Source: Mesoterricola silvestris
GTDB lineage: Bacteria > Acidobacteriota > Holophagae > Holophagales > Holophagaceae
DNA length: 64,000 bases
Direction: 5' to 3'
Assembly (NCBI RefSeq): GCF_030295405.1
Contig: NZ_AP027080.1
Coordinates: forward strand, 3,456,001 to 3,520,000
A program made the translations under genes and the position numbers. Position 1 is the stretch's first letter. The number at the start of each line of letters is the position of its first letter. Shown piece after piece: positions 15,162 to 29,898 of the stretch. Under the pieces are notes generated by a model. It was not told the DNA's origin, searched no databases, and worked only from the letters and a program-made list of their open reading frames with translations.

Positions 15162-16042
15162 CCCTGGTAGCTGTCCTGGGCGTGGTAGCTGCTGCGCACC
15201 AGGGGGCCGCTCTCCACCCGCTGGAAGCCCATTTCCAGGCCCTTGCGCCGGTACATCTCGAATTCCGCGGGTTCCACGTACCGTTCCAGGGGCAGGTGCA
15301 GGGCGGAGGGGGGCAGGTACTGGCCCAGGGTCGCGATGTCCACGGAGGCGGCCCGCCAGTGGCCCATGAGCTCCAGGACCTCTTCCGGCGTCTCGCCCAG
15401 GCCCACCATGATTCCGCTCTTCACCCGCAGGTCCGGGGCCGCGGCGTCCCTGTGCCGGGCCGCGCCGGCCAGCACCCGCAGGCTCTGCCCGTAGTCCGCG
15501 TCCGGGCGCACCCGCTTGTAGAGGCGCTCCACGGTCTCCACGTTGTGGTTCAGCACCTGGGGGGCGGCCTCCAGGACGGTGGCCAGGCAGGCCTCGCTTC
15601 CGCTGAAATCGGGGATCAGCACCTCCACGCCGCAGGCGGGCACCAGGGTGCGGATCCAGCGGATGGTGGCGGCGAAGTGGGCGGCCCCCCCGTCGGGCAG
15701 GTCGTCCCGGTTCACGCTGGTCACGACGGCAAAGGCCAACCCCAATGACGCCACGGCTTCCGCCACACGCTGGGGTTCGCCGGGGTCCACTTCCCCCGGG
15801 CGGCCCTTGCCCACGTTGCAGAAGCCGCAGTGCCGGGTGCACACGTCCCCCAGCAGCATGAAGGTGGCGGTGCGATGGATCCCCCAGCATTCATGGAGGT
15901 TGGGGCAGCGCGCCTCCTCGCAGACGGTCACCAGGCGGTTGGACCGCACCAGGGCCTCCACCTCGGCCACCACTTCCGGTGCTGGAACCTTGATTTTCAA
16001 CCAATCGGGACGGGGGCCGGGGAGAACGGGGGGACGCGCCAT
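15158..16042 (-). CDS. lipA: Lipoyl synthase
   Basis: 294 residues. It inserts two sulfurs into octanoyl groups on lipoyl domains. Both [4Fe-4S] motifs are present: the auxiliary cluster CEEARCPNLHEC and the radical SAM cluster CTRHCGFC. The C-terminal RSSYHAQ contains the Ser that ligates the auxiliary cluster. ATG 16042 gives MARPP. A TTG at 16051 adds three residues, and neither has a strong Shine-Dalgarno. It diverges from scpA, with 39 bp between starts. lipB is not in the window. Confidence 0.95.
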   Translation of the reverse strand: MARPPVLPGPRPDWLKIKVPAPEVVAEVEALVRSNRLVTVCEEARCPNLHECWGIHRTATFMLLGDVCTRHCGFCNVGKGRPGEVDPGEPQRVAEAVASLGLAFAVVTSVNRDDLPDGGAAHFAATIRWIRTLVPACGVEVLIPDFSGSEACLATVLEAAPQVLNHNVETVERLYKRVRPDADYGQSLRVLAGAARHRDAAAPDLRVKSGIMVGLGETPEEVLELMGHWRAASVDIATLGQYLPPSALHLPLERYVEPAEFEMYRRKGLEMGFQRVESGPLVRSSYHAQDSYQG

Positions 16043-16081
16043 AGAGGTCAATCTTAGCGCACTGGGCTACAATGGAGGGCC

Positions 16082-16846
16082 ATGACCGATTCCCCCCGAG
16101 AACCCGCGGCCTTCGAACCCCCGAAGGGCTTCGAGACGAAGTTCCGCGATCTGGAGCTGCACCTGGCCTCCTTCGACGGCCCCCTGGACCTGCTCCTGCA
16201 CCTGATCCGGGACCAGAAGCTGGACATCCTGGACCTGCCCATGGCCTCCGTGACCCGGCAGTACATGGACTACCTGCTGCTCATGGAGGAGCTGAACCTG
16301 GAGATCGCGGCGGAGTTCGTGGCCATGGCCGCCCAGCTCCTGCAGATCAAGAGCCGCATGATGCTCCCCCGGCCCCCGGCCGACGAAGGCCTGGAGGACC
16401 CCCGGGAGGACCTGGTGCAGCGCCTGCTGGACTACCAGCAGGTGAAGGAGGCCGCCAAGGAACTCTCCGGCCGCGAGGCGGAGTGGCAGAAGGTGGTCTT
16501 CGCGCCGGGGCTGGATATCCGGGACCACGCCCGGGTGGAGGAGGAGCCCATCAAGGCCAACCTCTTCGACCTGCTCGCGGCCTACCGGGACGCCCTGAAG
16601 CGGCTCCTGCCGCCCCCCCCGGTGCAGGTGCGCACCCCGCCCAAGACCCTGGAACAGCGCATCGCCGAGGTGACCGCCTTCCTCACGGACGGGCGCTGGG
16701 AGGCCTTCGGGGGGCTCCTGGCCACCGCCGTCACCCGGGAGGAGCTGGTGCTCACCTTCCTGGCCCTCCTGGAGATGGTCCGCACCGGCCGGATCCTCCT
16801 GGTGCAGTCGGAGGCCTTCGGCGAGATCCGCGTCCGCGCGGCCTAG
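16082..16846 (+). CDS. scpA: Segregation and condensation protein A (SMC kleisin)
   Basis: 254 residues. Kleisin subunit of the SMC-ScpAB condensin. The N-terminal signature FDGPLDLLLHLIRDQKLDI and YLLLMEELNLEIAAEFVAMA are diagnostic. The C-terminal winged helix (AVTREELVLTFLALLEM) docks on the SMC head. GGAGG precedes the ATG. It starts a chain of five genes running with short gaps or overlaps into the two-component pair; scpB is not adjacent. Confidence 0.93.
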   Translation: MTDSPREPAAFEPPKGFETKFRDLELHLASFDGPLDLLLHLIRDQKLDILDLPMASVTRQYMDYLLLMEELNLEIAAEFVAMAAQLLQIKSRMMLPRPPADEGLEDPREDLVQRLLDYQQVKEAAKELSGREAEWQKVVFAPGLDIRDHARVEEEPIKANLFDLLAAYRDALKRLLPPPPVQVRTPPKTLEQRIAEVTAFLTDGRWEAFGGLLATAVTREELVLTFLALLEMVRTGRILLVQSEAFGEIRVRAA

Positions 16847-16855: not shown

Positions 16856-17320
16856 GTGGACGCCGATCCCAATCCCTCGTTCGCAAAGGCCTTCCGCATC
16901 GCCTACCTGCTGGGCATGTCCATCTGCGTGGCCTGGCCCCTGCTCCTGCAGCTCATGCTGGGCACGGTGATCCGGCCCGGGGAGGCGCCCCCCGGCGGGG
17001 TCATCCAGCAGCTGGGCTACACCTTCACGGGGCTCACCTTCGCGGCGGCGTTCTTCGTGACCTGGCGGTGGACCAAGGTGCAGCGGGCCTTCGGGAGGCT
17101 GGAGGATGCCCGGAGGCCCGGCACCGTGATCCGTGAGACCATCCTCTACGCCGCCCTCTTCGAGCTCAGCTCCCTCTACGGGATCGTCTACTACGCCCTG
17201 GGGGGCCCCGGGGCCGAACGCTACGCGCGGGCCTTCATCGCCTTGACCACCATCATGTTCTTCGTATTCGTACCCCGATTCCAGGCCTGGCGGGATGCCG
17301 CCCAGGAGGAGCGCCCATGA
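16856..17320 (+). CDS. Hypothetical four-helix membrane protein
   Basis: 154 residues from a GTG at 16856 with TAGGAGG ideally placed. Hydrophobic segments lie near 12-38, 50-70, 92-112 and 120-137. No recognised domain. The gene begins 9 bp after scpA and overlaps the next gene by four bases, so it belongs to the scpA-to-response-regulator operon. Confidence 0.75.
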   Translation: MDADPNPSFAKAFRIAYLLGMSICVAWPLLLQLMLGTVIRPGEAPPGGVIQQLGYTFTGLTFAAAFFVTWRWTKVQRAFGRLEDARRPGTVIRETILYAALFELSSLYGIVYYALGGPGAERYARAFIALTTIMFFVFVPRFQAWRDAAQEERP

Positions 17321-17802
17321 ACGAGAATTCCCCCCACGACAAGACCGATCCCGGAATCGTGCCCGGGCTCAAGGACACCCAGCCCCTGCGCATCATGCCG
17401 GACGCCGGCACCACCCAGTCCCAGCCCATCGTGGCGCCCCTGCCGGAAGCGCGCACGGCCCAGACCCGGGCCTCCCGTCCCCTGCTCTGGGTCTTCGGGC
17501 TCCTGGCCGTGGCGATCCTGGGCGGCAGCGTGGCCTACTACTTCCTGTACCCCAGCGGCGAGGCCCCGTCCCCCCTGCACGCCAAGGCGGAGGTGCCCGC
17601 GGTCCTCCTGCCGTACCTGGACAAGGCCGCCCAGGGCGACTCCGGCGCCATGCGGATGCTGGGCACGATGTACTACAACGGCCTGAACGTCCCCGCGGAC
17701 CGCAAGGAAGGCGTCAAGTGGTACCGCAAGGCCGCGGCCGCGGGCAGCGTGGCGGCCCGCAAGGACCTGGAGCAACTGGGCCTGGCGGTGGACGAGAAGT
17801 GA
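17317..17802 (+). CDS. Membrane-anchored Sel1-repeat protein
   Basis: 161 residues. About 52 polar residues are followed by a single membrane helix (about 53-75), then an outside part with a Sel1-type repeat (MLGTMYYNGLNVPADRKEGV, then KWYRKAAAAG). Sel1 repeats are TPR-like and mediate protein contacts. Overlaps at both ends (ATGA and GTGA) tie its translation to the upstream membrane protein and the downstream kinase. That makes it a candidate accessory sensor for the soluble kinase, by inference from position only. Confidence 0.78.
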   Translation: MNENSPHDKTDPGIVPGLKDTQPLRIMPDAGTTQSQPIVAPLPEARTAQTRASRPLLWVFGLLAVAILGGSVAYYFLYPSGEAPSPLHAKAEVPAVLLPYLDKAAQGDSGAMRMLGTMYYNGLNVPADRKEGVKWYRKAAAAGSVAARKDLEQLGLAVDEK

Positions 17803-19295
17803 GCGCATCCGAGACGCCCCTCGCCAAGCTCCTCGCGGACCAGGCCTACGACGGGCTCTTCCCCAACCTCTACGACTGGATCTACGTCATGGGGGTCTCC
17901 GAAGGCGGAGAGCTCACCTTCGAGACGGTGAACCCGCCCCTGGGCGGGGGGTCGGGGTTCCTGCTGCCGGAGTTCACGGGGAAGACGCCCAGCCAGTGCC
18001 TGCCTCCGGACAGCGCCCAGCTCCTCATGAACCACTTCGGCAGGGTGCTGGCCGAGGAGCGGCCCCTCCTGTACGAGGAGGAGCACGTGGTGGAGGGCCG
18101 GGCCCGGAGCTTCCAGACCACCCTCACGCCGGTGCGGAACAAGTGGTCCCGCATCCACCGCATCGCCGCCGTGTCCCGGGACATCACCGCCCTCAAGGAG
18201 GCCGAGGCGGCCCTCCACGCCTCCGAGGAGCGGCTGAACCTGGCCCTGGAGGGGACGCAGCAGGGCCTCTGGGACTGGAACCTGGTCAAGGGCGAGGTGT
18301 ACCGCAGCCCCCGCTGGTTCTCCATGCTGGGCCTCACCCCCGCCGGAGTGCCCCCCACCCTGGAGGGCGGCCTCGCCCGCATCCACCCCGAGGACCGGCT
18401 CCAGGTGGAGGGGGCCATGAACGCCCATCTGGAGGGGCGCCAGGCCACCTTCCAGGTGGAGTACCGCATCCTGGGGGGGACCACCGACTGGATCTGGGTC
18501 TTCGACGCCGGCAAGGTGGTGGCCTGGGACGACCAGGGGCGCCCGGCCCGCATGACGGGCATGTGCACCGATATCACCGAGCGCCGCCGGGCCGAGGAAT
18601 CCCTGCGGGCCCTGGTGGGGGGCGTGGTGCACGAGATCCGCAACCCCGTCTACGGCATTTCCATCAACCTAGACGCCATGGAGGCCACCTTCGGGGAGGA
18701 GCCGCGGTACATGCCCTTCGTGGCCGCCCTGCGGGAGAGCGCCGAGCGCATCTCCAGCCTCATGAACGACCTCAAGGACTACGGGGAGCCCCGCACCCTC
18801 AACCCCGAGCCCTGCCTCCTCAAGGCCCTCCTGGAGGAGGCCGCGCGAAGCTGCGAGCCCCAGGCGGCGCGCCACGAGTGCACCCTGGGGATCCACCTGG
18901 AGAACCCCCACCTGGTGCTCCCCCTCAATGCCCGGCGCATGCACCAGGTATTTCGCAACCTCATGGAGAACGCCCTCCACCACTCGCCCCCCGGGGCGGA
19001 AGTGGCCGTGAGGTGCCGGCGGGACCGCAGGGAGGACCACGAGTGGTGGATCTTCACCGTGGAGGACCAGGGGCCGGGCTTCGCCCCCGAGACCCAGGCC
19101 CGGGCCTTCGAGCCCTTCTTCACCCGGCGCAAGGGCGGCACGGGCCTGGGCCTCTCCATCGTCAAGCGGGTGGTGGAGGAGCACGGCGGGTCCGTGGAAC
19201 TGGGCAACCGCTCCGGGGGCGGCGCCATCGTCACCGTCAAGCTCCCCGCCCCCCGCAAGGTGGCCACCCTCATGCAGGACCCCGACCATGACTGA
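17799..19295 (+). CDS. Soluble PAS-PAS sensor histidine kinase
   Basis: 498 residues from a GTG overlapping the previous stop. There is no membrane helix, so it is cytoplasmic. The first PAS-like region is at about 20-135; a second PAS/PAC (about 145-265) ends TGMCTDITERRRAEE. HisKA carries the phospho-acceptor in HEIRNP (His about 278). The ATPase shows NLMENALHHSP, DQGPGF and the GTGLGLSIVK box. It overlaps the NtrC-type regulator gene by eight bases and is its likely partner. The operators after that regulator suggest that the pair controls the phosphoanion genes downstream. Confidence 0.9.
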   Translation: MSASETPLAKLLADQAYDGLFPNLYDWIYVMGVSEGGELTFETVNPPLGGGSGFLLPEFTGKTPSQCLPPDSAQLLMNHFGRVLAEERPLLYEEEHVVEGRARSFQTTLTPVRNKWSRIHRIAAVSRDITALKEAEAALHASEERLNLALEGTQQGLWDWNLVKGEVYRSPRWFSMLGLTPAGVPPTLEGGLARIHPEDRLQVEGAMNAHLEGRQATFQVEYRILGGTTDWIWVFDAGKVVAWDDQGRPARMTGMCTDITERRRAEESLRALVGGVVHEIRNPVYGISINLDAMEATFGEEPRYMPFVAALRESAERISSLMNDLKDYGEPRTLNPEPCLLKALLEEAARSCEPQAARHECTLGIHLENPHLVLPLNARRMHQVFRNLMENALHHSPPGAEVAVRCRRDRREDHEWWIFTVEDQGPGFAPETQARAFEPFFTRRKGGTGLGLSIVKRVVEEHGGSVELGNRSGGGAIVTVKLPAPRKVATLMQDPDHD

Positions 19296-20637
19296 CCCCC
19301 GGATCCTCCTCATCGAGGACGACCCCTCCGTGCGCCACGGCATGGCCGCCTTCCTGCGGGCCAACGGCCTCGAGGTGCAGGAGGCCGAGACCTGCAAACA
19401 GGCCATGGAGCTCTACCGCAGCGGCAACCCGGACGTGGTGGTGGCCGACTACAGCCTCCCCGACGGCACCTCCCTGGACATCCTTTCCCAGGTCAAGCGC
19501 CTGAACGAATCCACCCCCTTCATCATCCTCACCGCCCACGGCTCCATCGACCTGGCCGTGAGGGCCATCAAGGAGGGGGCGGAGCAGTTCCTCACCAAGC
19601 CCGTGGAATCCAAGGCCCTGCTGGTCATCGTGCGCCGCCTCCTTCAGCAGCAGCGCCTGCGCCACCGCCAGGAGGCCGCCAACCGCGAGCGGGCCGGGAT
19701 CATGAACCCCTTCCAGGGGGAGAGCCCCGCCATCCGCAGGCTGGAGGAGCAGGCCCGGCGGATGCTGGAGTGGGACAGCCCCATCCTCATCCTGGGGGAG
19801 ACCGGCGCCGGCAAGGGCGTCCTGGCGCGGTGGATCCACTTCCACAGCCGCCGGGCCGAAGAGGCCTTCGTGAACCTCAACTGCGCCGGGCTCACCCGGG
19901 AGCTGCTGGAGAGCGAGCTCTTCGGGCACGAGCGGGGCGCCTTCACGGGGGCCGTGGCCGCCAAGCCGGGCCTGCTGGAAGTGGGGCACCGGGGCATCGT
20001 GTTCCTGGACGAGATCGGGGACATGGACCCCGCCATCCAGCCCAAGCTCCTCAAGGCCCTGGAGGAGAAGACCTTCCGGCGCCTGGGCGACGTGCGGGAC
20101 CGGGTGGTGGACATCCGCCTCATCGCCAGCACCAACCTCGCCCTGGAGGAGATGGTGCGGGCCAAGACCTTCCGGGACGACCTGTACTACCGCATCAGCA
20201 CCCTGACCCTGCGCATCCCCCCGCTGCGGGAGCGCCCCCAGGACGTGCCCGTGCTCGCGGCCACCATCCTGCAGTCCGTGGCCACGCGCATGGGCCGGGT
20301 GCCCGTGACCCTGAGCCCCCGGGCCGAGGCCGCCCTGGTGGACTACCCCTGGCCGGGCAATATCCGGGAGCTCTCCAATGTCCTGGAGCGGGCCATGATC
20401 CTCCAGCGCGGCGACCAGATCGAGGCCGCCGACCTGGGCATGGAGGACCGACTGGCCCCGCCCGGGGACGGCCCCGGGGAGCTGGCCACCCTCAAGGAGA
20501 TGGAGCGCGCCCACATCGAGCGGGTGCTGGCGCGCACCGCCGGCAACGTCGCCGAGGCGGCCCAGATCCTGGGGCTGGCCCGGCGCACCCTCTACGACCG
20601 CCTGAAGGTGCTCGGTCTCAATCTCAGCCGCATCTGA
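19288..20637 (+). CDS. NtrC-family sigma-54-dependent response regulator
   Basis: 449 residues. The receiver domain (about 4-118) has the acidic pair E10/D11, phospho-acceptor D54 and K104. The AAA+ domain has Walker A GETGAGKG (170-177) and the sigma-54 contact loop GAFTGA (217-222), followed by FLDEIGDMD. The C-terminal Fis-type helix-turn-helix is at about 415-447 (NVAEAAQILGLARRTLYDRL). It activates RNA polymerase carrying sigma-54. The last base of its stop codon begins the first of two palindromes that, with a -24/-12 element, form a sigma-54 promoter for the next operon. Confidence 0.95.
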   Translation: MTDPRILLIEDDPSVRHGMAAFLRANGLEVQEAETCKQAMELYRSGNPDVVVADYSLPDGTSLDILSQVKRLNESTPFIILTAHGSIDLAVRAIKEGAEQFLTKPVESKALLVIVRRLLQQQRLRHRQEAANRERAGIMNPFQGESPAIRRLEEQARRMLEWDSPILILGETGAGKGVLARWIHFHSRRAEEAFVNLNCAGLTRELLESELFGHERGAFTGAVAAKPGLLEVGHRGIVFLDEIGDMDPAIQPKLLKALEEKTFRRLGDVRDRVVDIRLIASTNLALEEMVRAKTFRDDLYYRISTLTLRIPPLRERPQDVPVLAATILQSVATRMGRVPVTLSPRAEAALVDYPWPGNIRELSNVLERAMILQRGDQIEAADLGMEDRLAPPGDGPGELATLKEMERAHIERVLARTAGNVAEAAQILGLARRTLYDRLKVLGLNLSRI

Positions 20638-20672
20638 GCGGGGCTTCGCACCGGGGTTTGCGGGATTCCGCA
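20637..20672 (+). promoter_or_regulatory. Pair of upstream activator palindromes, copy 1
   Basis: Site 1 (20637-20650) is AGCGGGGCTTCGCA and site 2 (20659-20672) is TGCGGGATTCCGCA, with centres 22 bp apart, about two helical turns. Site 2 has perfect 5-bp arms TGCGG/CCGCA. Its reverse complement matches the second site before the porin gene at 13 of 14 positions. Centre of site 2 to the -24 element is about 83 bp in both places. These are the expected position and form of enhancer sites for an NtrC-type activator, whose gene ends here. Confidence 0.75.
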
Positions 20673-20748
20673 CAGCGCCGCCCCGGAGGGGGGCGGGGGC
20701 GGTGGTATGATCCCTTCCAGAATCAATAGATAGACGAGCCGCTGGAAA

Positions 20749-20764
20749 TGGCGCGGGGATTGCT
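20749..20764 (+). promoter_or_regulatory. Sigma-54 (-24/-12) promoter 1
   Basis: TGGCGCGGGGATTGCT has the invariant GG and GC at the required spacing (GG, ten bases, GC) and TTGC at -12. Transcription would start near 20775, leaving about 40 nt before the ATG at 20814. Paired activator sites lie about 83 bp upstream. It would drive the secreted CYTH-like, secreted unknown and secreted pyrophosphatase genes up to the terminator at 23405. Confidence 0.78.
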
Positions 20765-20813
20765 CCCAAGGGGGCATCCCATCGCGTACCCACTCTTCCG
20801 AGGAGAGACCAAC

Positions 20814-21773
20814 ATGATCAGGAACATCGTGGCAGTTCTGCTGGTGGCGGGTTCCGTGGCCCCCGGCGCCTGGGGCGCCGCGCCCGCGCAGGCCAAGGCC
20901 CTCCACCTCCGCACCATCGAGAAGTACCCGGCTCCCAAGCTGGAGAAGGTCAACGGCCGGGAAATCAAGTTCCTCCTGGACCCCGCCAAGCTCAAGGGCT
21001 CCCCGGAGGAGGCCTTCGCGCTGGTGTGGGACCGGGTCAAGGCCTCCGCGGCCAGGAACGGCTTCACGATCACCGAGAAGGCCGAGAAGCCCCTGAAGAT
21101 CGAGAAGGCCTACAAGGAGTACTTCGACACGCCCGGCCAGGACCTCTGGAAGAAGGGCTACCTGGTGCGCATCACCCAGAAATTCAAGAAGGGCGTGGCT
21201 GAATTCCAGGTGGGCCTGACCATCAAGGCCGTCAACCCCGACGCCAACGTCGCCATGGCGACGCCCCTGAAGGTCGTGGGCGTGGAGAAGGTGAAGGTCG
21301 AGGCCGAGGAGAACGCCGGCCCCGCCGCCGGCGGCGGCCTGGACGGGTACGTGGAGAAGGGCGCCTCCTTCAACGTCACCCTCGACAGCCTGGGCAAGCT
21401 GACCCTGGGCGATTTCGCCAAGTACATGCCCGAACTGGCCACCCTCGGCATTCCCGCCGACACGAAGCTCGTGGGCAACCGGGCCTACTCGGTGCGCGTG
21501 AAGCCCGGCGCGGTGGAGCTGGCCGGCACCGACGACTGCGGGTTCTCCATGGAAGGGTGGTCCACGACCCCCGGCGGCGCGCCCTACCTCTACGACTTCT
21601 CCTACGGCTACGGCGACATCGACTTCTACGACAGCGCCGCGCTCCACGAGGCCAGCGAGAAGTTCTACTACAAGGTCGTCCTGGGGGACCTCGGCGACCT
21701 GGCCATGCCCCAGGCCGAGAAGTGGGGGGGATCCAAGGTCCGCAAGCTCATGAACAGGCCCATCAGCCGCTGA
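20814..21773 (+). CDS. Exported CYTH-like (triphosphate tunnel-like) protein
   Basis: 319 residues from the ATG at 20814 (GAGGAGAG upstream). Signal peptide at about 1-21 (GAWGA). The mature protein begins with a strand GREIKFLLD, reminiscent of the ExK start of CYTH domains. Next is KEYFDTPGQDLWKKGYLVRI, close to the (Y/F)DTP...L...LRIR pattern of the family. A late strand (LYDFSYGYGDIDFYD) would close the barrel. CYTH/TTM enzymes hydrolyse tripolyphosphate or handle triphosphate ligands in a tunnel. Periplasmic members are unusual. It could instead be a non-catalytic binding protein, since the full ExExK motif is not intact. Confidence 0.6.
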   Translation: MIRNIVAVLLVAGSVAPGAWGAAPAQAKALHLRTIEKYPAPKLEKVNGREIKFLLDPAKLKGSPEEAFALVWDRVKASAARNGFTITEKAEKPLKIEKAYKEYFDTPGQDLWKKGYLVRITQKFKKGVAEFQVGLTIKAVNPDANVAMATPLKVVGVEKVKVEAEENAGPAAGGGLDGYVEKGASFNVTLDSLGKLTLGDFAKYMPELATLGIPADTKLVGNRAYSVRVKPGAVELAGTDDCGFSMEGWSTTPGGAPYLYDFSYGYGDIDFYDSAALHEASEKFYYKVVLGDLGDLAMPQAEKWGGSKVRKLMNRPISR

Positions 21774-21808
21774 AGTCCATTCCCACCCTTTCCAGGAGAA
21801 CCATCACG

Positions 21809-22579
21809 ATGCTAAACCTCCGCCGCAGTTTCACGCTGGGCGCCCTCTCGGCGTGCCTCGCCTTCCCCGGCTTCGGCCAGGCCGGGCCCGAAAAGCTCGA
21901 CGCCCTCTACGGGTGCCTGTCCATGCCCGCCTACATCAAGCACTACGAAGCCGACAAGAACGGCAAGGTGCTCATCAACCCCTACCTGCAGGTGGCCACC
22001 AAGGACTACCCCGCCATCCTGGACGCCAAGAACGCCCCCTACAACTGGGTGATCGACGCCGAAGGCCGGGTGGGCATCATCCAGGAAGCCGCCCATCCCC
22101 TGGGCCGCACCTACCCCAAGGGCTTCTTCCGCCCCGAGGACCAGTCCAAGCGCAAGCCCGGCACCACCGAGAACTACGGCCACGTCTCCGCCCTCGCCGG
22201 CGGCCCCAGCCGCATCAGCGGCGAGATCAACTACGACAAGGCCACCAAGACCTTCACCATCAACAACAAGTCCGGCCGCTACTCCAAGCACAACCCCGAC
22301 CGCACCCCGGAGCAGATGGCCAACGCCGCCAAGCTGATCCAGGAAGTGGTGGATCCCGGCAAGACGGCCTGGGGCCCCACCTACTACCTCCTGGAGTACG
22401 CCCCCGAACCCATCCGCGAGGAGCTCCTGAAGAGCCCCAAGCTCGCCTATGACGACGCCGCCAAGAAGAGCCGCCCCCACATCATCCTCGCCGCCGCCCC
22501 GGCGACGGCCCCCGATGCGGAAAAGCCCAAGACCAAGGCCAAGAAGGCCAAGGCCGCCCACAACGACGATCCGTCATAA
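21809..22579 (+). CDS. Exported protein of unknown function
   Basis: 256 residues. A signal peptide (about 1-24, ending AFPGFGQA) precedes a globular domain with compact motifs: NWVIDAEGRVGIIQEAAHP, RISGEINYD and FTINNKSGRYS. The C-terminus is an Ala/Lys-rich tail (KTKAKKAKAAHNDD). I do not recognise the fold. The basic tail could bind polyanions. It lies 35 bp after the CYTH-like gene and 42 bp before the pyrophosphatase gene, each with its own ribosome site, so all three are probably one transcript. Confidence 0.75.
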   Translation: MLNLRRSFTLGALSACLAFPGFGQAGPEKLDALYGCLSMPAYIKHYEADKNGKVLINPYLQVATKDYPAILDAKNAPYNWVIDAEGRVGIIQEAAHPLGRTYPKGFFRPEDQSKRKPGTTENYGHVSALAGGPSRISGEINYDKATKTFTINNKSGRYSKHNPDRTPEQMANAAKLIQEVVDPGKTAWGPTYYLLEYAPEPIREELLKSPKLAYDDAAKKSRPHIILAAAPATAPDAEKPKTKAKKAKAAHNDDPS

Positions 22580-22621
22580 GACCCGCGCCCCACCGGCCCA
22601 TCGAATAGGAGCTTGGAACAC

Positions 22622-23398
22622 ATGAAGACGCTATTCTCCCCCCGCATCCTCCTCCCGGGAATCCTCCTCTGCCTTGCGGCGGCCACCACGCCCCTGCCGG
22701 CGCGGCAGCCCTCGGACGTCACGGCCCAGGCCCACGTCCTCAAGGGCAGGAAGAACTTCCTCACCGGCTACGACCCCGTCAACGTCGACGGCACCATCAA
22801 CTGCGTCGTCGAGATCCCCGCCGGCACCACCGCCAAGTACGAGACGGACATCAAGACCGGCCTCATCGCCATCGAGCAGAAGAACGGCGCCCCCCGCTAC
22901 GTGCAGTACCTGGGCTACCCCTGCAACTACGGCGCGGTGCCCCGCTCCGTCCTCCTCAAGACCAAGGGCGGCGACGGCGATCCCATCGACGTGCTGATCC
23001 TGGGCCATTCGGTGCCCACCGGCACCCTGGTCAAGGCCCGCACCCTGGGGATCCTGGTGCTTTCCGACTCCGGCGAAGTGGACAACAAGCTGGTGGTGGC
23101 CATGGAGGGCTCGCCCTTCTGGAACTGCAAGAGCATCGCCGACCTGGACGCCAAGTTCCCCGGCGTCACCTCCATCCTCCAGACCTGGTTCACCTCGTAC
23201 AAGGGCCGGGACAAGGAAGGCAAGCTCCTGCTGTCCTCCACGGGCTTCAAGGAGCGGGCCGAGGCGATCCGCTTCCTGGGCGACGCCGTCCTGGACTACG
23301 AGAACTCCGTGACCACCGACGCCGACCGGCGCCCCCTGGACAAGGACGGGAACCCCAGCCTGTACCGCTGGCCCGGCGCGAAGAACCTGGGCGAATGA
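22622..23398 (+). CDS. Exported family I inorganic pyrophosphatase
   Basis: 258 residues. Signal peptide at about 1-28 (PLPARQ), so probably periplasmic. Family I pyrophosphatase features: VVEIPAGTTAKYE near the start (Glu and Lys of the active site), YPCNYGAVP, and the metal-binding signature DGDPIDVL at about 118-125. The segment ending GHSVPTG follows. It hydrolyses pyrophosphate to two phosphates. Cytosolic versions drive biosynthesis, whereas an exported one implies an external or periplasmic pyrophosphate supply. It is the last gene before a strong terminator. Confidence 0.9.
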   Translation: MKTLFSPRILLPGILLCLAAATTPLPARQPSDVTAQAHVLKGRKNFLTGYDPVNVDGTINCVVEIPAGTTAKYETDIKTGLIAIEQKNGAPRYVQYLGYPCNYGAVPRSVLLKTKGGDGDPIDVLILGHSVPTGTLVKARTLGILVLSDSGEVDNKLVVAMEGSPFWNCKSIADLDAKFPGVTSILQTWFTSYKGRDKEGKLLLSSTGFKERAEAIRFLGDAVLDYENSVTTDADRRPLDKDGNPSLYRWPGAKNLGE

Positions 23399-23404
23399 CA
23401 CCGA

Positions 23405-23428
23405 GGGGGGCGCAACCGCCCCCCTTTT
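23405..23428 (+). terminator. Intrinsic terminator after the pyrophosphatase gene
   Basis: Perfect 8-bp stem GGGGGGCG/CGCCCCCC with loop CAAC and a following TTTT. It starts 7 bp after the pyrophosphatase stop and separates that transcript from adk. Confidence 0.85.
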
Positions 23429-23458
23429 CATCCTGCGAACATCAAGGAGGCACAAGAC

Positions 23459-24112
23459 ATGCGCATCGTACTCTTGGGTGCGCCCGGGGCCGGCAAGGGC
23501 ACCGTGGCCAAACAGCTCACGGCCTTCGACGGCTCCGTGCAGATTTCCACCGGCGACCTCCTCAGGGCCGCCGTGAAGGCCGGAACGCCCCTGGGCAGGC
23601 AGGCCCAGGCCTACATGGAGCGGGGCGATCTCGTCCCCGACCGGCTCATCATGGGCATGGTGGAGCAGCGCTTCCAGGAACACCCCGGCGAGGGCTTCAT
23701 CCTGGACGGCTTCCCCCGCACCATCCCCCAGGCCGTGTCCCTGGGCCTGCTCCTCAAGGGCCTGGACCTGCCCCTGCACCTGGTGGTGAACCTGGCGGTG
23801 CCCGAGGAGGTCATCCTGGACCGGCTCACCACGCGCCGCACCTGCTCGAACCCGGGCTGCAACGCCATCTACAACGTCAAGTCGAACCCGCCCGCCCCGG
23901 ACGGCACCTGCCGCGCCTGCGGGTGCAGCGTCATCCAGCGGGAGGACGAGACCCCCGCCGCCATCGCCCGGAGGCTGGAGGTCTACCGGCAGCAGACCAA
24001 TCCCCTGGTGGGCCACTACCAGCGCACCGGCCTCCTGCTCACCGTGGAGGAGCTGGACACGGCCGCCATCGTCAAGACCATCGCCGGAGCCCTGGCCACG
24101 CAGGTGGCCTGA
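23459..24112 (+). CDS. adk: Adenylate kinase
   Basis: 217 residues. It interconverts 2 ADP with ATP and AMP. The P-loop GAPGAGKGT is at about 7-15; ISTGDLLR, DGFPRT and RRLEVYRQQTNPL are family marks. The LID carries four cysteines, with the first pair spaced as CSNPGC (Cx4C) and the second as CRAC (Cx2C); zinc-binding LIDs usually have two Cx2C pairs. AAGGAGG precedes the ATG. Adk is usually near ribosomal-protein genes. Here it sits between a secreted pyrophosphatase and a phosphate-type porin and could recycle AMP/ADP produced in phosphoanion metabolism. Confidence 0.93.
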   Translation: MRIVLLGAPGAGKGTVAKQLTAFDGSVQISTGDLLRAAVKAGTPLGRQAQAYMERGDLVPDRLIMGMVEQRFQEHPGEGFILDGFPRTIPQAVSLGLLLKGLDLPLHLVVNLAVPEEVILDRLTTRRTCSNPGCNAIYNVKSNPPAPDGTCRACGCSVIQREDETPAAIARRLEVYRQQTNPLVGHYQRTGLLLTVEELDTAAIVKTIAGALATQVA

Positions 24113-24121
24113 GGCGGCCCG

Positions 24122-24158
24122 TGCGCGTTCCCGCAGGGGTCCTGCGCGGAATCCCGCA
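24122..24158 (+). promoter_or_regulatory. Pair of upstream activator palindromes, copy 2
   Basis: Site 1 (24122-24135) is TGCGCGTTCCCGCA and site 2 (24145-24158) is CGCGGAATCCCGCA, with centres 23 bp apart. Site 2 is the near-exact reverse complement of site 2 after the regulator gene. From its centre to the -24 element is about 83 bp, matching copy 1. Such conservation of sequence and spacing in two intergenic gaps is unlikely by chance, so I read them as targets of the adjacent NtrC-type regulator. Confidence 0.72.
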
Positions 24159-24233
24159 CAACCCTCCCGGCGGGGTCCGCTCCGGATTCGAATATCACCC
24201 CTGAAATGTTAGGTTTAGCTTATCCCGGCACTT

Positions 24234-24249
24234 TGGCACGGATCTTCCA
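24234..24249 (+). promoter_or_regulatory. Candidate sigma-54 promoter 2
   Basis: TGGCACGGATCTTCCA has a perfect -24 half (TGGCACG) but TTCC instead of TTGC at -12. On sequence alone it would be marginal. The matched activator sites and identical distances raise confidence. The start would fall near 24260, leaving about 77 nt before the porin ATG. The rest of 24159-24336 holds nothing else I can name. Confidence 0.55.
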
Positions 24250-24336
24250 ATTCACGTCCATTCCCTCCGGGAAGCCCTCGTCTTCAACACAGCCGGCGCA
24301 CCCGCGCCCACCCATGACCTACCGCTGGAGGTTCAC

Positions 24337-25662
24337 ATGAAGTTGTTCGTCACGCCCCTGGCCCTCGCGATCCTCGCGGGCCCCCTCGCCGCCCAGGCGC
24401 CCACCGACGCCGAGAAGCGCATCGCCGACCTCGAGAAGAAGGTGGACAAACTCACCAAGGCCCAGGCCAAGAAATCCGACGATTCCAAGGACAGCGGGTT
24501 CTACGTCAAGTTCGGCGGCCGCTTCCACCTGGATTCCGTCTTCTTCGACGGCAACCAGAACCGCCTGGCCAACGGGACCCAGTTGCGCCGCGGGCGCATC
24601 AGCTTCAAGGCCGGCTTCGGCAAGGACTGGGTGGCCGAAGGCGACTACGATTTCGCCGAAGGCGACGCCTCCATCAAGGACATGTGGATCGGCTACCAGG
24701 GCCTCAAGGACACCCTGATCCAGGTGGGCCAGTTCAAGGAGCCCTTCGGCTTCGACACCCTCTCCTCCTCCAACGCCATCTGGTTCACCGAGCGCTCCTA
24801 CAGCGACGTGTGGGCTCCCGACCGCCACGTGGGCATCGCCATCGCCAAGTGGGGCGACCGCTGGCAGGGCAAGGCCAGCTTCTTCGGCCAGGCCATCGAC
24901 GACACCAACACCGCCGACACCAACGGCTCCGACCAGGGCTGGGGCTACGCCGCGCGCTTCACCGTGGCCCCCATCCTCGTCTCCGAATCCAAGGCCATCC
25001 ACTTCGGCGTGGCCATGGCCAACCGCACCCCCATCGCCGACTACAGCACCACCACCCTGGTGCCCGTGGGCAACGAGGTCTATGCCGTGGACTTCTCCGG
25101 CCGGCCCGAGGCGGGCAAGATCAGCAAGGCCAAGTTCCTCAATGCCAAGGTCGCCAACGTCAAGAACTACACCCAGGTGGGCGGCGAGTTCGTGGGCGTG
25201 TGGAACGCCTTCTCCTGGCAGAGCGAGTACCAGCAGACCAAGGTCAAGCGCCGGGACGCCATCGGCACCACCCCGGCCGCCCTGGCCGCCTCCGTCGTGG
25301 ACCACACCTTCTCCACCTACTACGGCCAGGTGTCCTGGATCTTCGGCGGCCAGCGCACCTACTCCGCGCAGGACGGCCTCTTCGGCAAGGTCAACCCCTC
25401 CAACAAGCTGGGCGCCCTGGAAGTGGTGGCCCGCTACAGCAAGATGAACCAGGACGACCTCACGGCCATCGACCCCGTCAAGGGCGGCCAGGCCAAGAAC
25501 CTGTCCCTGGGCCTCACCTGGTACACCAACAAGAACCTGCGCTGGATGATCGACTACACCAAGGTCGACAACAACGAGAACGCCAAGCCCAAGGGCGTCT
25601 ACGGCGGCATCGTCAACGACGACTTCTCCATCACCACGCTCCGCCTGCAGGTCAACTTCTAG
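24337..25662 (+). CDS. OprO/OprP-family anion-selective porin
   Basis: 441 residues. Signal peptide at about 1-19 (PLAAQA), then a short coiled-coil (AEKRIADLEKKVDKLTKAQ) as in trimeric porins. A beta-barrel follows, ending in Phe (LRLQVNF), the outer-membrane sorting signal. GQFKEPFGFDTLSSSNA is characteristic of the phosphate-selective porin O/P family. In Pseudomonas, OprP favours phosphate and OprO favours pyrophosphate; which this resembles cannot be decided by eye. It lies behind the second candidate sigma-54 promoter and next to a triphosphatase gene. Confidence 0.88.
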   Translation: MKLFVTPLALAILAGPLAAQAPTDAEKRIADLEKKVDKLTKAQAKKSDDSKDSGFYVKFGGRFHLDSVFFDGNQNRLANGTQLRRGRISFKAGFGKDWVAEGDYDFAEGDASIKDMWIGYQGLKDTLIQVGQFKEPFGFDTLSSSNAIWFTERSYSDVWAPDRHVGIAIAKWGDRWQGKASFFGQAIDDTNTADTNGSDQGWGYAARFTVAPILVSESKAIHFGVAMANRTPIADYSTTTLVPVGNEVYAVDFSGRPEAGKISKAKFLNAKVANVKNYTQVGGEFVGVWNAFSWQSEYQQTKVKRRDAIGTTPAALAASVVDHTFSTYYGQVSWIFGGQRTYSAQDGLFGKVNPSNKLGALEVVARYSKMNQDDLTAIDPVKGGQAKNLSLGLTWYTNKNLRWMIDYTKVDNNENAKPKGVYGGIVNDDFSITTLRLQVNF

Positions 25663-25698
25663 AAGCCGGTCCCTTCCGGACGGGTCCGCACCCCGGGC

Positions 25699-25710
25699 CC
25701 TTCCGGAAGG
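25699..25710. promoter_or_regulatory. 12-bp perfect palindrome CCTTCCGGAAGG
   Basis: It lies in the 96-bp gap between the porin and the CYTH gene, next to a second short palindrome, CGGACGGGTCCG. There is no T-tract, so it is a weak terminator at best; it may be an operator or an RNA-processing hairpin. Confidence 0.35.
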
Positions 25711-25758
25711 ACTGTCCGCAGTGGAATACTTCAACCCGCCCATGAATCAGGAGGCCCC

Positions 25759-26232
25759 GTGGCCAAGGAAATCGAACGCAAGTACCAAGTGAAGCTGGAC
25801 GCCTGGGTCCCCCAGGGCGAAGGCATCCACTTCAAGCAGGGCTACCTCAATTCCCAGAAGGAGCGGGTCGTGCGCGTGCGCATCGAAGGCACCCGCGCCA
25901 AGCTCACCATCAAGGGGATCACCACCGGCGTGACGCGCTCCGAGTTCGAGTACGCCATTCCCGTGGAGGACGCCGCCGTCCTCCTGGACAACCTCTGCGA
26001 GCAGCCCCTCATCGACAAGCACCGCCACAAGGAGGTGCACTTCGGCAAGACCTGGGAGATCGACGTCTTCCACGGCCTCAACGAGGGCCTCGTGGTGGCC
26101 GAGATCGAGCTGGCCTCCGAGAACGAGGCCATCACCCTGCCCGCCTGGGCCGGCACGGAAGTCTCCAGCGATCCGCGCTATTTCAATTCCAACCTGCTCA
26201 AGAACCCCTACACTACCTGGAACAAGGCTTAA
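25759..26232 (+). CDS. CYTH-domain inorganic triphosphatase-like protein
   Basis: 157 residues from a GTG with CAGGAGG upstream. The N-terminal EIERKY is the ExExK hallmark. Alternating basic strands follow: VVRVRIEG, KLTIKG and TRSEFEYAIP. HKEVHFGKTWEIDVFHG and VVAEIELASENEA complete the eight-strand tunnel. Length and motifs match small bacterial CYTH proteins such as those of Nitrosomonas and Clostridium, shown to be tripolyphosphatases. There is no signal peptide, so it acts in the cytoplasm. It ends at a terminator, giving a porin-CYTH unit. Confidence 0.88.
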   Translation: MAKEIERKYQVKLDAWVPQGEGIHFKQGYLNSQKERVVRVRIEGTRAKLTIKGITTGVTRSEFEYAIPVEDAAVLLDNLCEQPLIDKHRHKEVHFGKTWEIDVFHGLNEGLVVAEIELASENEAITLPAWAGTEVSSDPRYFNSNLLKNPYTTWNKA

Positions 26233-26238
26233 TCAACC

Positions 26239-26271
26239 GCGGGCCGCCCCAAGGGGGGCGGTCCGCCTTTT
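26239..26271 (+). terminator. Intrinsic terminator after the CYTH gene
   Basis: 12-bp stem GCGGGCCGCCCC/GGGGCGGTCCGC with one G-T pair, loop of four bases, then CTTTT. It lies only 12 bp before the next ATG, so the carrier gene either relies on read-through or has a promoter inside it. Confidence 0.8.
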
Positions 26272-26282
26272 CGGGCATATCG

Positions 26283-27848
26283 ATGGCAGCTGAAGCACCC
26301 GCAGCACCTCCGTCCCACTCCCTCCAGGACCTCCTGGACATGGAGAAGATGGTCCTCTCCTCCAAGACCCGGGAGGCCCAGAGCCCCACGGAAAAATGGA
26401 TGCGCTACCTGGGCTTCCCGGGCGGCATCCTGCTCTTCCTCCTCGTCCTCTACCTTCCGGCCGGGGCTGGCCTCAGCGGCGCGGCCCAGACCGGCACGGC
26501 CTGCTTCGCCCTGGCCCTGGTGTGGTGGGTCACGGAACCCTTCCCCACCTACGTCACCTCCCTGATCCTCATGTTCCTGCTGCTGGTGACGCGCACCTCG
26601 CCCGCCAAGCCCATCATGGACGTGCTGGGCATGGAAGTGATCTGGCTCAACCTCCTGGCCTTCATCCTCAGCTCCATGCTGGTGAAGACCCGCCTGGCCA
26701 AGCGCATGGCGCTCTGGCTCATCATCAAGTTCGGCCGCAAGGCCTCCTGGGCCCTCCTGGCCTTCGTCATCCTGCAGCTGGCCCTGTCGCCCCTCATCCC
26801 GGCCACCGCGGCGCGCTGCGTCATGACCCTGCCCCTTATCATCGTGGTGGGCACCATCTACGGCTCCACGGAGCAGACCCCCAACAATTTCGGCAAGAAC
26901 CTCCTGCTCCTCAACCTCGCCGGCATCTCGGTGCTCACCTCGGTCACCATGACCGGCTCCTCGGCCAACCTGGTGGCGGTGGGCTTCATCCAGAGCATGA
27001 CCGGCCACCGGGTCTACTACATGGACTGGATGATCGCCGGGGCCCCCATCGCCATCCTCACCATGCTGATCATGTGGTTCCTGGGGCGGAAGTTCATCTT
27101 CCCCATCGCCCCCGAAGACCAGTTCCCCAAGGTCGAGGGCGGCCTGGAGCTGGTGGAGCGCCAGCACAAGGCCATGGGCGGCTTCTCCTTCCAGGAGAAG
27201 AAGGCCCTGGTGATCTTCGGCGTGGTGCTCTTCCTGTGGATGACCGACATCTTCCACATGCGGTGGTTCGGCGTGGAGATCAGCGCCCCCTTCGCGGCCC
27301 TGGTGGGCGCGGTGCTGGTGCTCTTCCCCCGCTACGGCGTGCTCCAGTGGAGTGAGGCCGACATCCCCTGGCACCTCCTCATCTTCTCCGCGGGCGCCTA
27401 CGCCGGCGGCCTGGCCCTGGAGGACACGGGGGCCGCGGAATGGGGCGTCAGGACGCTGTTCGGAGGCATGAACCTCCGGAGCATCCCCTTCGGCGCCGCC
27501 TTCACGATCATCATGGCCGTGATGATGTACAGCCACCTGCTCACCACCTCCAAGACGGTGCGCACCATCATCCTGATCCCCATCATCATCACCATGTCCA
27601 AGGCCCTGGGCTGGGACCCCGTCTCCATGGCCCTGCCCGCCGCGCTCTGCATCGACTGGGTGGTGGGCCTGCCCATCAGCGGCAAGCCCAACGTCATCCT
27701 CTTCTCCACCAACCAGTACACCGTGGGGGAGAACTTCAAGTTCGGCATGGCCACCTGCACCGTGGGCATGGTGCTCCTGGTCCTCTCGGCGGCAACCTGG
27801 TTCCACTGGATCGGGATCACGCCTTCCTTCTGGGCGATGCCTCAATGA
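26283..27848 (+). CDS. SLC13/DASS-family anion:sodium symporter
   Basis: 521 residues with about 12 hydrophobic segments after a cytoplasmic N-terminal tail of about 40 residues. Two internally related halves carry substrate-loop motifs: MTGSSANLVAVGF in the first (SNT-like) and GLPISGKPNVILFSTNQY in the second, where the usual Thr-Pro is replaced. DASS carriers move dicarboxylates, sulfate or, in the fungal Pho87-type branch, phosphate. Context (porin, pyrophosphatase, triphosphatase) favours a phosphoanion, but this is inference. Its stop overlaps the next start (ATGA). Confidence 0.85.
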   Translation: MAAEAPAAPPSHSLQDLLDMEKMVLSSKTREAQSPTEKWMRYLGFPGGILLFLLVLYLPAGAGLSGAAQTGTACFALALVWWVTEPFPTYVTSLILMFLLLVTRTSPAKPIMDVLGMEVIWLNLLAFILSSMLVKTRLAKRMALWLIIKFGRKASWALLAFVILQLALSPLIPATAARCVMTLPLIIVVGTIYGSTEQTPNNFGKNLLLLNLAGISVLTSVTMTGSSANLVAVGFIQSMTGHRVYYMDWMIAGAPIAILTMLIMWFLGRKFIFPIAPEDQFPKVEGGLELVERQHKAMGGFSFQEKKALVIFGVVLFLWMTDIFHMRWFGVEISAPFAALVGAVLVLFPRYGVLQWSEADIPWHLLIFSAGAYAGGLALEDTGAAEWGVRTLFGGMNLRSIPFGAAFTIIMAVMMYSHLLTTSKTVRTIILIPIIITMSKALGWDPVSMALPAALCIDWVVGLPISGKPNVILFSTNQYTVGENFKFGMATCTVGMVLLVLSAATWFHWIGITPSFWAMPQ

Positions 27849-28543
27849 GCCGACTCCTCCTCCCCCTCCTCCTGGGCACCGCCCTCTGCGCGGCGCCCGC
27901 CGAGATCCGCCAGTACGCCACCCGCGTGGACATCCAGGGCGACGGCTCCGGAAGGGCCACCGCCACCGTCACCCTCGCCGGCGACCCCTCCGACACGGTG
28001 GAGATCCCCGTGGGCTTCAAGGCCAGGGGCTTCGCCCTCACCGAGGGCCCCAAGGGGCTCAAGCTCGAACCCTACGGCTCGGCGATCCGGGTGGTCCTGC
28101 CCCCCGAACGGGGCGCGTGGACCTTCACCTTCACCTTCACGGCCCTGGACACCTTCATCCCCGAGGCCGTGCCCGAAGGCGAGAAGGCCCGGATCCCCGC
28201 CACGAGCCGGGTGGTGCGCCACGCCTTCGTGCAGACCTTCGAGGATCCCATCGCCGCCTACAGCGTCGAAGCCGTTCTCCCTCCCGGGTACCGGTTCCAG
28301 GCCATCAAGGAGGCCCTGCCCAAGGTGCGCAAGACCGAATCCGAGCCCCGGGTCCGCCTGGGCCGCACCGACGGCCGTCAGACCGCCATCCTGCGGGTCA
28401 CCCGCCTCAAGCAGGGCGATTCCGCGGCCATGACCCTGGAGGCCACGCCGTCCAGCCGCTCCATTCTGTGGCTGGTGACGGGCCTGGCCATCGCGGGCCT
28501 CTACCTTTTCCTCTTCCGCGACATGGTGCAGTCCCGGCACTGA
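27845..28543 (+). CDS. Exported, C-terminally anchored protein of unknown function
   Basis: 232 residues from the ATG overlapping the carrier stop. Signal peptide at about 1-16 (LLGTALCAAP); a beta-rich middle part (TFTFTFTALDTFIPEAVPEG, a run of strands); then a single helix near the C-terminus (about 206-224) with the short tail RDMVQSRH inside. No family recognised. Coupling to the SLC13 carrier suggests a carrier-associated periplasmic subunit. Confidence 0.75.
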   Translation: MSRLLLPLLLGTALCAAPAEIRQYATRVDIQGDGSGRATATVTLAGDPSDTVEIPVGFKARGFALTEGPKGLKLEPYGSAIRVVLPPERGAWTFTFTFTALDTFIPEAVPEGEKARIPATSRVVRHAFVQTFEDPIAAYSVEAVLPPGYRFQAIKEALPKVRKTESEPRVRLGRTDGRQTAILRVTRLKQGDSAAMTLEATPSSRSILWLVTGLAIAGLYLFLFRDMVQSRH

Positions 28544-28580
28544 CCGCCCCATCCCCCACCCCTTCCTGCCCGAGGTCCCA

Positions 28581-29861: not shown

Positions 29862-29898
29862 GCCCCCCGTCACCCACCCCATTCCAAGGAGCCTTCCC

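Follow-up and report, generated by a model that had tools for sequence, protein, structure and literature searches.

A proposed sigma-54 two-component regulon with paired activator sites, probably serving hydrolysis of condensed phosphate outside the cytoplasm

Two promoter regions of the same build lie close together in the 64-kb stretch of DNA analysed here (the window), which comes from a bacterium related to Holophagaceae, and the locus raises the question of which activator serves both and what the genes behind them do. In gap A, behind the gene for an NtrC-type response regulator, palindromes A1 (AGCGGGGCTTCGCA, 20637..20650), whose first base is the last base of the regulator stop codon, and A2 (TGCGGGATTCCGCA, 20659..20672), the strongest of the window by weight matrix, are predicted activator sites without assigned strand and are followed on the plus strand by a -24/-12 element (element A, TGGCGCG-N4-TTGCT, 20749..20764) that is the best sigma-54 match of the window. 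In gap B, ahead of a porin gene, the likewise strandless predicted sites B1 (TGCGCGTTCCCGCA, 24122..24135) and B2 (CGCGGAATCCCGCA, 24145..24158) precede plus-strand element B (TGGCACG-N4-TTCCA, 24234..24249), identified by direct reading and block comparison. A previous sequence-only reading had described both arrangements, and direct reading reproduces it: the centers of A1 and A2 are 22 bp apart and those of B1 and B2 23 bp, the elements placed by that reading about 83 bp further on begin 83.5 bp (A2 center to 20749) and 82.5 bp (B2 center to 24234) away, and A2 indeed agrees with the reverse complement of B2 at 13 of 14 positions. The consensus palindrome is TGCGG-N4-CCGCA, and transcripts are predicted to start at about 20775 (promoter A) and 24260 (promoter B). 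Element A carries the expected GG (-24) and GC (-12) in their usual spacing; element B agrees only partly, as its -12 region reads TTCC instead of TTGC, which is the state of the porin promoter in the source genus. Taken alone, element B ranks fourth on the plus strand in the sigma-54 scan of the window (12.7 bits), and three minus-strand sites also outscore it. The genome contains one copy of rpoN (G000:C1:2596715).

With a palindrome weight matrix whose training set was 21 blocks, all from other genera and picked by a twofold occurrence of GCG-N6-CGC, the four top palindromes of the window are exactly A1, A2, B1 and B2 (21.1, 17.7, 14.1 and 11.1 bits in descending order; next match, 10.7). 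A composite matrix of pair and promoter that included the window's own blocks gave 53.4 and 50.4 for the two blocks, followed by 26.3 for site A read backwards, and no match above 24 in 20 dinucleotide resamples of the window; with the window blocks held out, the two scored 51.6 and 41.5. The strict pair-plus-promoter pattern occurs in 2 copies in the 4.99-Mb genome, both in the present cluster, so that the arrangement is not common genome-wide, as the sequence-only reading required. Across 25 related genomes it gave 9 matches, each of them in one of the two gaps of a cluster that has a regulator orthologue, and a reversed control pattern gave none in the same 25. Of the 6 genomes with a regulator orthologue 5 have the pattern, and none of the 19 others does; in the sixth orthologue genome (G002) the contig ends 66 bases beyond the regulator gene. 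What is specific is the combination of pair and promoter; a single palindrome is not rare: with up to 2 mismatches it matches 143 times per strand genome-wide, compared with 55 for a control, and a regulon defined by a single-palindrome genome scan was dropped as too unspecific. Two candidate sites were also rejected, G000:C1:3111397 as a partial match (E 0.011) that falls within an ORF and has one palindrome, and G002:C413 as a pair with no acceptable promoter, the best candidate scoring only 3.3 bits and lying at an unusual distance. A site is also present at L078:5824, with an ORF behind it.

The palindromes, whose retention in syntenic relatives had been made a test of the proposal, are kept there: each of the 17 orthologous loci that could be read has one pair or more with a sigma-54 element, and pair and promoter precede the porin in 12 of 12 loci that include the porin start, the G001 copy with a degenerate half-site. 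The spacing between palindromes is 20-23 bp in all 28 pairs (search range 19-25), and the distance from the second palindrome to -24 is 79-83 bp in 26 of the 28 (search range 66-106), with about 82 bp as the usual value across orthologous loci. The linker has diverged across genera while pair and promoter were jointly kept at this near-fixed distance, and in G005 and G001, where about 0.2 and 1.2 kb separate the regulator from promoter A, the site block remains with o1, the first gene behind that promoter. As the 28 blocks were picked by GCG-N6-CGC twice and a sigma-54 score of at least 10 of 12, invariance of these letters arises partly by construction; distance and orthologous position were not part of the selection. 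The degenerate sites (L076 A, L048 B) were picked up by matrix search alone, some records overlap (L069, L070 and L073 are G005, G002 and G019, and the L072 sites are the G008 sites), and species counts carry phylogenetic dependence.

The regulator gene (19288..20637, plus strand) encodes what is, by Pfam domains and motifs, an intact NtrC-type protein with receiver (PF00072), sigma-54 AAA+ (PF00158) and Fis-type HTH (PF02954) domains, all above cut-off, the Walker A sequence GETGAGKG and a GAFTGA loop. No named equivalog (AtoC, NtrC, NtrX, ZraR, GlrR and others) passes among the best 25 of 121 NCBIfam models, the best score being 359.2 against a cut-off of 714 (AtoC). Its start is overlapped by the gene for a sensor histidine kinase (17799..19295, start codon approximate, plus strand; Pfam PAS_4, PAS_3, HisKA and HATPase_c), which also adjoins the regulator in orthologous loci and whose PAS domains point to no particular ligand. 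That this regulator activates both promoters, as had been proposed, is supported, since the sites co-occur with it, adjoin its gene, and its recognition helix is distinct: in the HTH comparison all 18 distinct orthologue rows that extend to the HTH have (A/V)(R/K)RTLYDR, here ARRTLYDR, and none of the 15 other rows does. The sites might instead be bound by a different enhancer-binding protein, with the adjacent regulator a bystander, as at least 42 matches to the regulator protein occur in the genome and such activators can act on distant genes. This is very unlikely in view of the distinct helix and of the confinement of the strict pattern to orthologue genomes, beside the target genes; moreover, none of 9 examined loci of regulator paralogues has it, nor does any of 6 loci of relatives with 45-56% identity to the regulator, on five of which the composite matrix was also run. 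Regarding autoregulation, no pair plus promoter precedes the kinase gene, and the composite scan of the window returned A, B and A backwards only.

Promoter A is followed on the plus strand by four genes (signal-like and lipoprotein-like N-termini here and below were judged by eye). The first, o1 (20814..21773), encodes a protein with a signal-like N-terminus whose AlphaFold model (pLDDT 88) appears to adopt the CYTH or triphosphate tunnel fold, as in AtTTM3, ygiF and SaTTM. A fold search gave 33 PDB matches with E ≤ 0.001, of which 30 are titled class IV/adenylyl cyclase, thiamine triphosphatase, ygiF, AtTTM3 or TTM and the remaining three chains (3v85, 2een) are presumably CYTH as well; the matches are distant, with TM-scores of 0.27-0.42 by query and 0.28-0.61 by target. 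Unlike these enzymes, o1 is larger, carries the signal-like N-terminus and is missed by Pfam CYTH, which is reached by 1 of 12 members (E=0.23); no Pfam family scores above cut-off. The hallmark ExExK of CYTH/TTM enzymes (available text of PMC8233210) is replaced in o1 by G-R-E-x-K (GxExK). Because the first Glu is absent and the fold matches are distant, catalysis is uncertain, and we class the modelled o1 as having a TTM-like fold rather than as an active TTM. The next gene, o2 (21809..22579), recognized as an ORF and from relatives, encodes a protein that also has a signal-like N-terminus and shares a single reading frame with o1 in L079 and L080; its structure model is poor (pLDDT 61), it gave no Pfam family of note and no significant PDB match, and assignment to XopV/AopV (NF041375) was rejected as sub-threshold (35 bits versus 220). 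A family I inorganic pyrophosphatase with a signal-like N-terminus (22622..23398; PF00719, 100.4 bits versus a cut-off of 23.5), which aligns with solved pyrophosphatases (residues 59-212 with 8qpt), and an adenylate kinase (23459..24112; PF00406 and TIGR01351, above cut-off), the last gene ahead of gap B, complete the group. The signal-like N-termini suggest that their bearers are exported.

Behind promoter B, also on the plus strand, lies the gene for a porin of the phosphate-selective porin O/P family (24337..25662; PF07396, E=1.1e-49, 170.2 bits versus a cut-off of 20.9), which gave no significant match to solved structures by sequence. Porins of at least 67% identity, and likewise o1, are found only in the 5 of 25 genomes with the complete cluster. 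After a gap of 96 bp follows a protein of CYTH (triphosphatase) type in which EIERK is intact and a signal-like N-terminus is absent (25759..26232; PF01928), possibly co-transcribed with the porin, and then a DASS-family sodium:anion symporter (26283..27848; PF00939), whose synteny after the porin is kept in relatives and which is a possible further operon member.

In relatives the element is also found at other genes. In G001 and G004 it stands at an unlinked locus ahead of a DHH-DHHA2 protein with a signal-like N-terminus that scores above the NCBIfam cut-off for Mn-dependent pyrophosphatase, a family II enzyme unrelated to the family I enzyme of the cluster. In G004, G005 and G019 it precedes a Metallophos-domain protein with a lipoprotein-like N-terminus; the G001 orthologue of this protein (L203) has no such element, so that regulon membership varies. 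Clusters of relatives additionally hold histidine phosphatase, metallophosphoesterase, DHH-DHHA2 and phospholipase-C-like (below cut-off) genes.

Sequence comparison shows that the sites are present, conserved and confined to genomes with the regulator, and which families the enzymes belong to; from this we infer, with a probability of nearly 80%, a sigma-54 two-component regulon for the extracytoplasmic hydrolysis of pyrophosphate and other condensed phosphate. The signal is probably a dedicated switch for condensed-phosphate harvest, since pyrophosphate- and phosphate-ester-splitting enzymes of relatives stand behind the same signal; this function is new, as the sequence-only reading named none. 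The sensor kinase would phosphorylate the adjacent regulator, whose dimers would bind the two palindromes about two helical turns apart, and the AAA+ ring would contact sigma-54 RNA polymerase across the near-fixed linker of about 82 bp and open both promoters. Promoter A would drive a putative operon of o1, o2, pyrophosphatase and adenylate kinase, and promoter B one that holds the porin gene and may extend to those of the CYTH protein and the transporter. The porin may admit condensed phosphate, which the triphosphate-tunnel protein and the pyrophosphatase, if exported and active on such substrates, would cut to orthophosphate, and low phosphate or condensed phosphate may be the inducing signal. 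Neither adenylate kinase nor the DASS transporter is particular to condensed phosphate. A bolder version, in which the switch senses condensed phosphate and not orthophosphate, an outer-membrane channel is combined with periplasmic hydrolysis, and family I and II pyrophosphatases are interchangeable within one Holophagaceae lineage, seems doubtful.

The same mechanism could instead govern a general phosphate-starvation regulon that answers low orthophosphate and stands in, under sigma-54, for part of the Pho regulon, with pyrophosphate as one substrate of many. We regard this as a serious contender at somewhat less than even odds: in relatives, genes for a metallophosphoesterase, a histidine phosphatase and a phospholipase-C-like protein join the set, and phosphate limitation strongly induces OprO and OprP of P. 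aeruginosa (available text of PMC9769906), whereas the presence of a triphosphate-tunnel-like protein beside pyrophosphatases of two unrelated families speaks for condensed phosphate in particular. The best PhoB (TIGR02154) score in the source genome, 207.8 bits, lies below the cut-off of 296.2, which does not establish absence of PhoB because only 2 of 14 control genomes pass. A regulon for uptake of dicarboxylates or other anions by porin and symporter, with the phosphatases as companions, would fit the kept synteny of the symporter, and DctB/DctD-type systems use sigma-54; it is highly improbable given that the members found at unlinked loci encode a pyrophosphatase and a phosphoesterase and that no pair plus promoter lies directly ahead of the symporter in the window. 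It is scarcely credible that an ordinary repressor or a sigma-70 activator uses the palindromes as operators and that the -24/-12 matches are coincidental. Single palindromes and single -24/-12 matches do occur elsewhere and promoter B deviates at -12, but pair and promoter are jointly kept across genera at a near-fixed distance; block selection accounts for part of this agreement, though not for the distance or the orthologous positions. A sigma-70 scan of 17000-30600 found 0 promoters, which says nothing either way because shuffles average only 0.7.

The architecture of a pair ahead of a sigma-54 promoter is classical. Like the present system, NtrC at glnA-type enhancers uses paired dyads upstream of a sigma-54 promoter and an AAA+ activator with GAFTGA; the NtrC dyad is of the TGCAC type and differs from the present palindrome, as does the regulon. 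The Pho regulon of P. aeruginosa is controlled by PhoB, an OmpR-type regulator. The condensed-phosphate regulon proposed here likely shares the purpose of PhoR-PhoB systems, phosphate acquisition, and differs in regulator class; in the Pho review PMC4415409, a term search for sigma54, NtrC, pyrophosph- and Acidobacter- found none of them. The porin belongs to Porin_O_P like OprO and OprP, called pyrophosphate-specific and phosphate-specific, respectively, and both more abundant at low phosphate in the available text of PMC9769906; in distinction from these, it is preceded by a sigma-54 activator element. AioR, which controls aioBA in arsenic islands, in the available text of PMC3834237, is likewise an NtrC-type response regulator with two tandem palindromes upstream of -24/-12 and phosphate genes nearby, and its sites are present in all 12 aioBA operons with aioXSR and absent from others, so that both kinds of site occur where the regulator genes occur. 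The likeness is one of arrangement, and AioR targets arsenite oxidase; no arsenic genes were recognized among the proteins scanned at the present loci. No description of the present regulon was found among the best-ranked literature matches of a search that covered few subscription journals.

In our judgement, enhancer-binding-protein regulons outside the well-studied phyla mostly lack assignment, and the present one can be assigned from sequence in site, regulator, targets and probable function. It suggests that extracytoplasmic pyrophosphate or short polyphosphate is a regulated nutrient here, with exported pyrophosphatases as tools, and this can now be tested with a specific motif, the mapped positions of two promoters and a short list of genes. 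The near-fixed distance of 82 bp makes the system a compact model of enhancer geometry. Rarer distances of 60, 70, 71 and 94 bp beside 82 resemble turn-sized steps; helical phasing was discarded, as 89 bp (L177) does not fit. An IHF site in the linker was also rejected, the best matches to what we take to be the IHF consensus (WATCAANNNNTTR) reaching 4 to 8 of 9 letters at varying places in 28 linkers, with no AT-content control. Many linkers are more AT-rich in their promoter-proximal half.

Direct reading of the sequence confirmed the coordinates that the sequence-only reading had assigned to two palindrome pairs and their -24/-12 elements around the gene of an NtrC-type regulator (19288..20637, + strand). 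In gap A, after the regulator stop codon, the palindromes occupy 20637-20650 and 20659-20672 and the -24/-12 element starts at 20749; in gap B, before the porin gene, they occupy 24122-24135 and 24145-24158, and the element, with TTCC at -12, starts at 24234. The -12 positions put the predicted transcript starts near 20775 and 24260, which is 39 bases before the start codon of o1, the first gene behind promoter A, and 77 bases before that of the porin gene, respectively. When all window positions were scored with a weight matrix derived from 21 blocks (pair, linker and promoter together) of other genera, the four palindromes took ranks 1-4. We searched 25 genomes for the strict pattern of pair plus sigma-54 element, with either TTGC or TTCC at -12, and used the reversed pattern as a control. 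Six TTGC-form and 3 TTCC-form matches were obtained, every one in gap A or B and all 9 in clusters with an orthologue of the regulator, and the reversed control gave 0 matches in these genomes. As had been expected, the combination is not common in the genome of the window (G000; 4.99 Mb), which holds just the two. Within G000, the window spans C1:3456001-3520000.

Named records with the regulator's orthologue were, among the closest ones, mostly labelled Holophagaceae, including Geothrix sp. BP11. Eighty named loci were kept, 16 of them with at least 75% identity to the regulator; three of these 16 (L070, L082 and L084) do not extend beyond the gene. Thirteen named loci together with those of G000 and the related genomes G001, G004, G005, G008 and G019, minus two duplicates (L069 and L073), made up 17 distinct readable loci. 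The proposal that the palindromes are conserved in syntenic relatives held in all of them, as at least one pair plus a sigma-54 element was present in 17/17, and in front of the porin in 12/12 loci that include the porin start, with a degenerate half-site in one (G001). In L074, L075 and L078 other genes directly follow the regulator with no pair, and pairs precede the gene containing o2 (the second gene behind promoter A) instead; L075 and L078 have pairs before the porin too, and L078 also ahead of an ORF with a start that looks lipoprotein-like by eye. The distance between regulator and site block is about 190 bp in G005 and about 1.2 kb in G001, and the block stays with o1. Among 28 pairs, the palindrome centres are 20-23 bp apart (19-25 permitted in the search) and the second centre lies 79-83 bp from -24 in 26 (66-106 permitted). 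An alignment of 24 blocks shows no variation in the palindrome cores, in TGGC at -24 or, at -12, in the second T and the C; for the cores and TGGC this is partly a consequence of block selection. The linker is mostly variable. Shortly 5' of -24, an inverted element TTAACC-N4/5-GGT is conserved against the variable linker in the blocks of L050, L071, L072, L075 and L081, from genera other than the window's, and is absent in the window's genus; it could bind a second factor or serve polymerase as an upstream element. In G001 (L048, about 3870-3950), a further pair-like stretch with one degenerate site follows closely on the regulator stop codon and ends about 10 bp 5' of TGGCACG-N4-TTCC, and an enhancer so near to -24 would be unusual; the ORF behind it appears by eye metallophosphoesterase-like, with a signal-like N-terminus.

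The regulator possesses bEBP domains, GAFTGA and a Walker A motif, and none of its NCBIfam matches is above cut-off among the best 25 of 121. The strict pattern occurs in 5/5 genomes with an orthologue and an intact flank and in 0/19 genomes without an orthologue; G002 has an orthologue and no strict pattern, its contig ending 66 bases past the gene. The recognition helix ARRTLYDR is kept in 18/18 distinct orthologue rows that reach the HTH, the exceptions being one A-to-V and one R-to-K change, and 6/7 relatives at 51-53% identity have PRSTLYQK. At nine paralogue loci examined, the strict pattern was found at none, and rpoN is present once in the genome. Given this co-occurrence, the conserved helix, the clean paralogue loci and the single rpoN, the activator of both promoters is most likely, by a wide margin, the regulator encoded next to them, whose binding to the palindromes we infer.

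Control by an NtrC-type regulator through paired palindromes and a -24/-12 element is a known architecture, and in the literature searched AioR is the nearest published parallel (PMC3834237). Judged by titles and abstract starts, no published account of such a regulon and no description of its content was found in the literature searched. A term search of a cross-phylum sigma-54 survey (PMC12316311) gave no Acidobacter- or pyrophosphat-, and one of a Pho review (PMC4415409) no sigma54, NtrC or pyrophosph-; a response-regulator survey of Desulfovibrio attributes phosphate starvation in that genus to PhoB (PMC3333781).

Behind promoter A lie o1, o2, an inorganic pyrophosphatase and an adenylate kinase, with 35-60 bp between genes. 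No Pfam family scores above cut-off for o1. Its structural model (pLDDT 88) matches 33 chains at E<=0.001, 30 of them recognisable from their titles as CYTH/triphosphate-tunnel proteins and the other three CYTH proteins as well; the similarity is remote, with TM-scores of 0.27-0.42 by query and 0.28-0.61 by target. The first Glu of ExExK, the hallmark motif of these proteins according to PMC8233210, is missing in o1, so that o1, with its triphosphate-tunnel-like model, is a putative enzyme at most. Only the 5/25 genomes having the cluster contain o1. In two relatives o1 and o2 form one continuous reading frame (L079:4117-5862 and L080:11557-13311), which suggests that their products work together. 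For o2 (21809-22579), which is well conserved in clusters, the NCBIfam score for the XopV/AopV family stayed below threshold (35 bits vs 220); in L075, L078 and probably L074, o2 forms the C-terminus of a longer protein. The pyrophosphatase (PF00719) has a catalytic domain that aligns to solved pyrophosphatases and, by eye, a signal-like N-terminal stretch; copies at least 68% identical are in the same 5 cluster genomes, and copies at 28-37% in 12/25, including these 5. The porin belongs to PF07396, the family that includes OprO and OprP of P. aeruginosa. OprO is specific for pyrophosphate and OprP for phosphate, according to PMC9769906. Porins of at least 67% identity occur in the same 5/25 genomes as o1, and weaker matches in five others (three at 34-39% over most of the length, two short). 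A CYTH protein gene comes next after the porin. Neither the adenylate kinase nor the DASS transporter has diagnostic value.

We scanned 41 genomes with a sequence model of the 24 blocks. Weak matches (E<=1) occurred in 28/41, the best in the 34 orthologue-free genomes having E 0.0175, and matches below 1e-9 were confined to cluster gaps A and B plus a single other site, G019:C74:18165, which lies before a gene whose product combines aBig_2 and Metallophos domains with a lipoprotein-like start. Lower-ranked sites that keep pair and promoter, G004:C1:4225785 (E 5.8e-8) and G001:C1:3513233 (E 8.3e-5), are unlinked to the cluster and precede orthologous DHH-DHHA2 proteins (75% identical) with signal-like N-termini, both scoring above the 283-bit cut-off of the NCBIfam manganese-dependent inorganic pyrophosphatase model (382.4 and 371.4 bits). 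These sites place a second, unrelated family of predicted pyrophosphatases under the same element. The system may respond to phosphate shortage generally or to condensed phosphate. In G000, the best match to a family II pyrophosphatase is 31%, with no close one, and the metallophosphoesterase protein was not found. G004:C1:226137 and G005:C134:23462 precede the metallophosphoesterase family seen in G019 (Metallophos 22.9, 28.9 and 24.2 bits for G004, G005 and G019, vs cut-off 21.5); the G001 orthologue has no such element in front. Next after the G004 gene comes that of a PAS histidine kinase which also has a receiver domain, and a similar-looking ORF is present in G005 (L179:7957-9894, L180:2683-4353). 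G019:C74:20106, with a weaker promoter match, precedes a porin fragment at a contig end, and G002:C413 has a pair and no good promoter. Clusters of relatives contain extra genes for histidine phosphatase (L072, L078), metallophosphoesterase (L075) and DHH-DHHA2 protein (L074), and that of L072 also a phospholipase-C-like gene, below its cut-off. Downstream of the cluster, G004 and G005 encode two DUF4010 proteins in succession, and the second shares about 60% identity with that of the window (L045:148-1449 and 2198-3475; L046:12803-14080 and 14825-16138).
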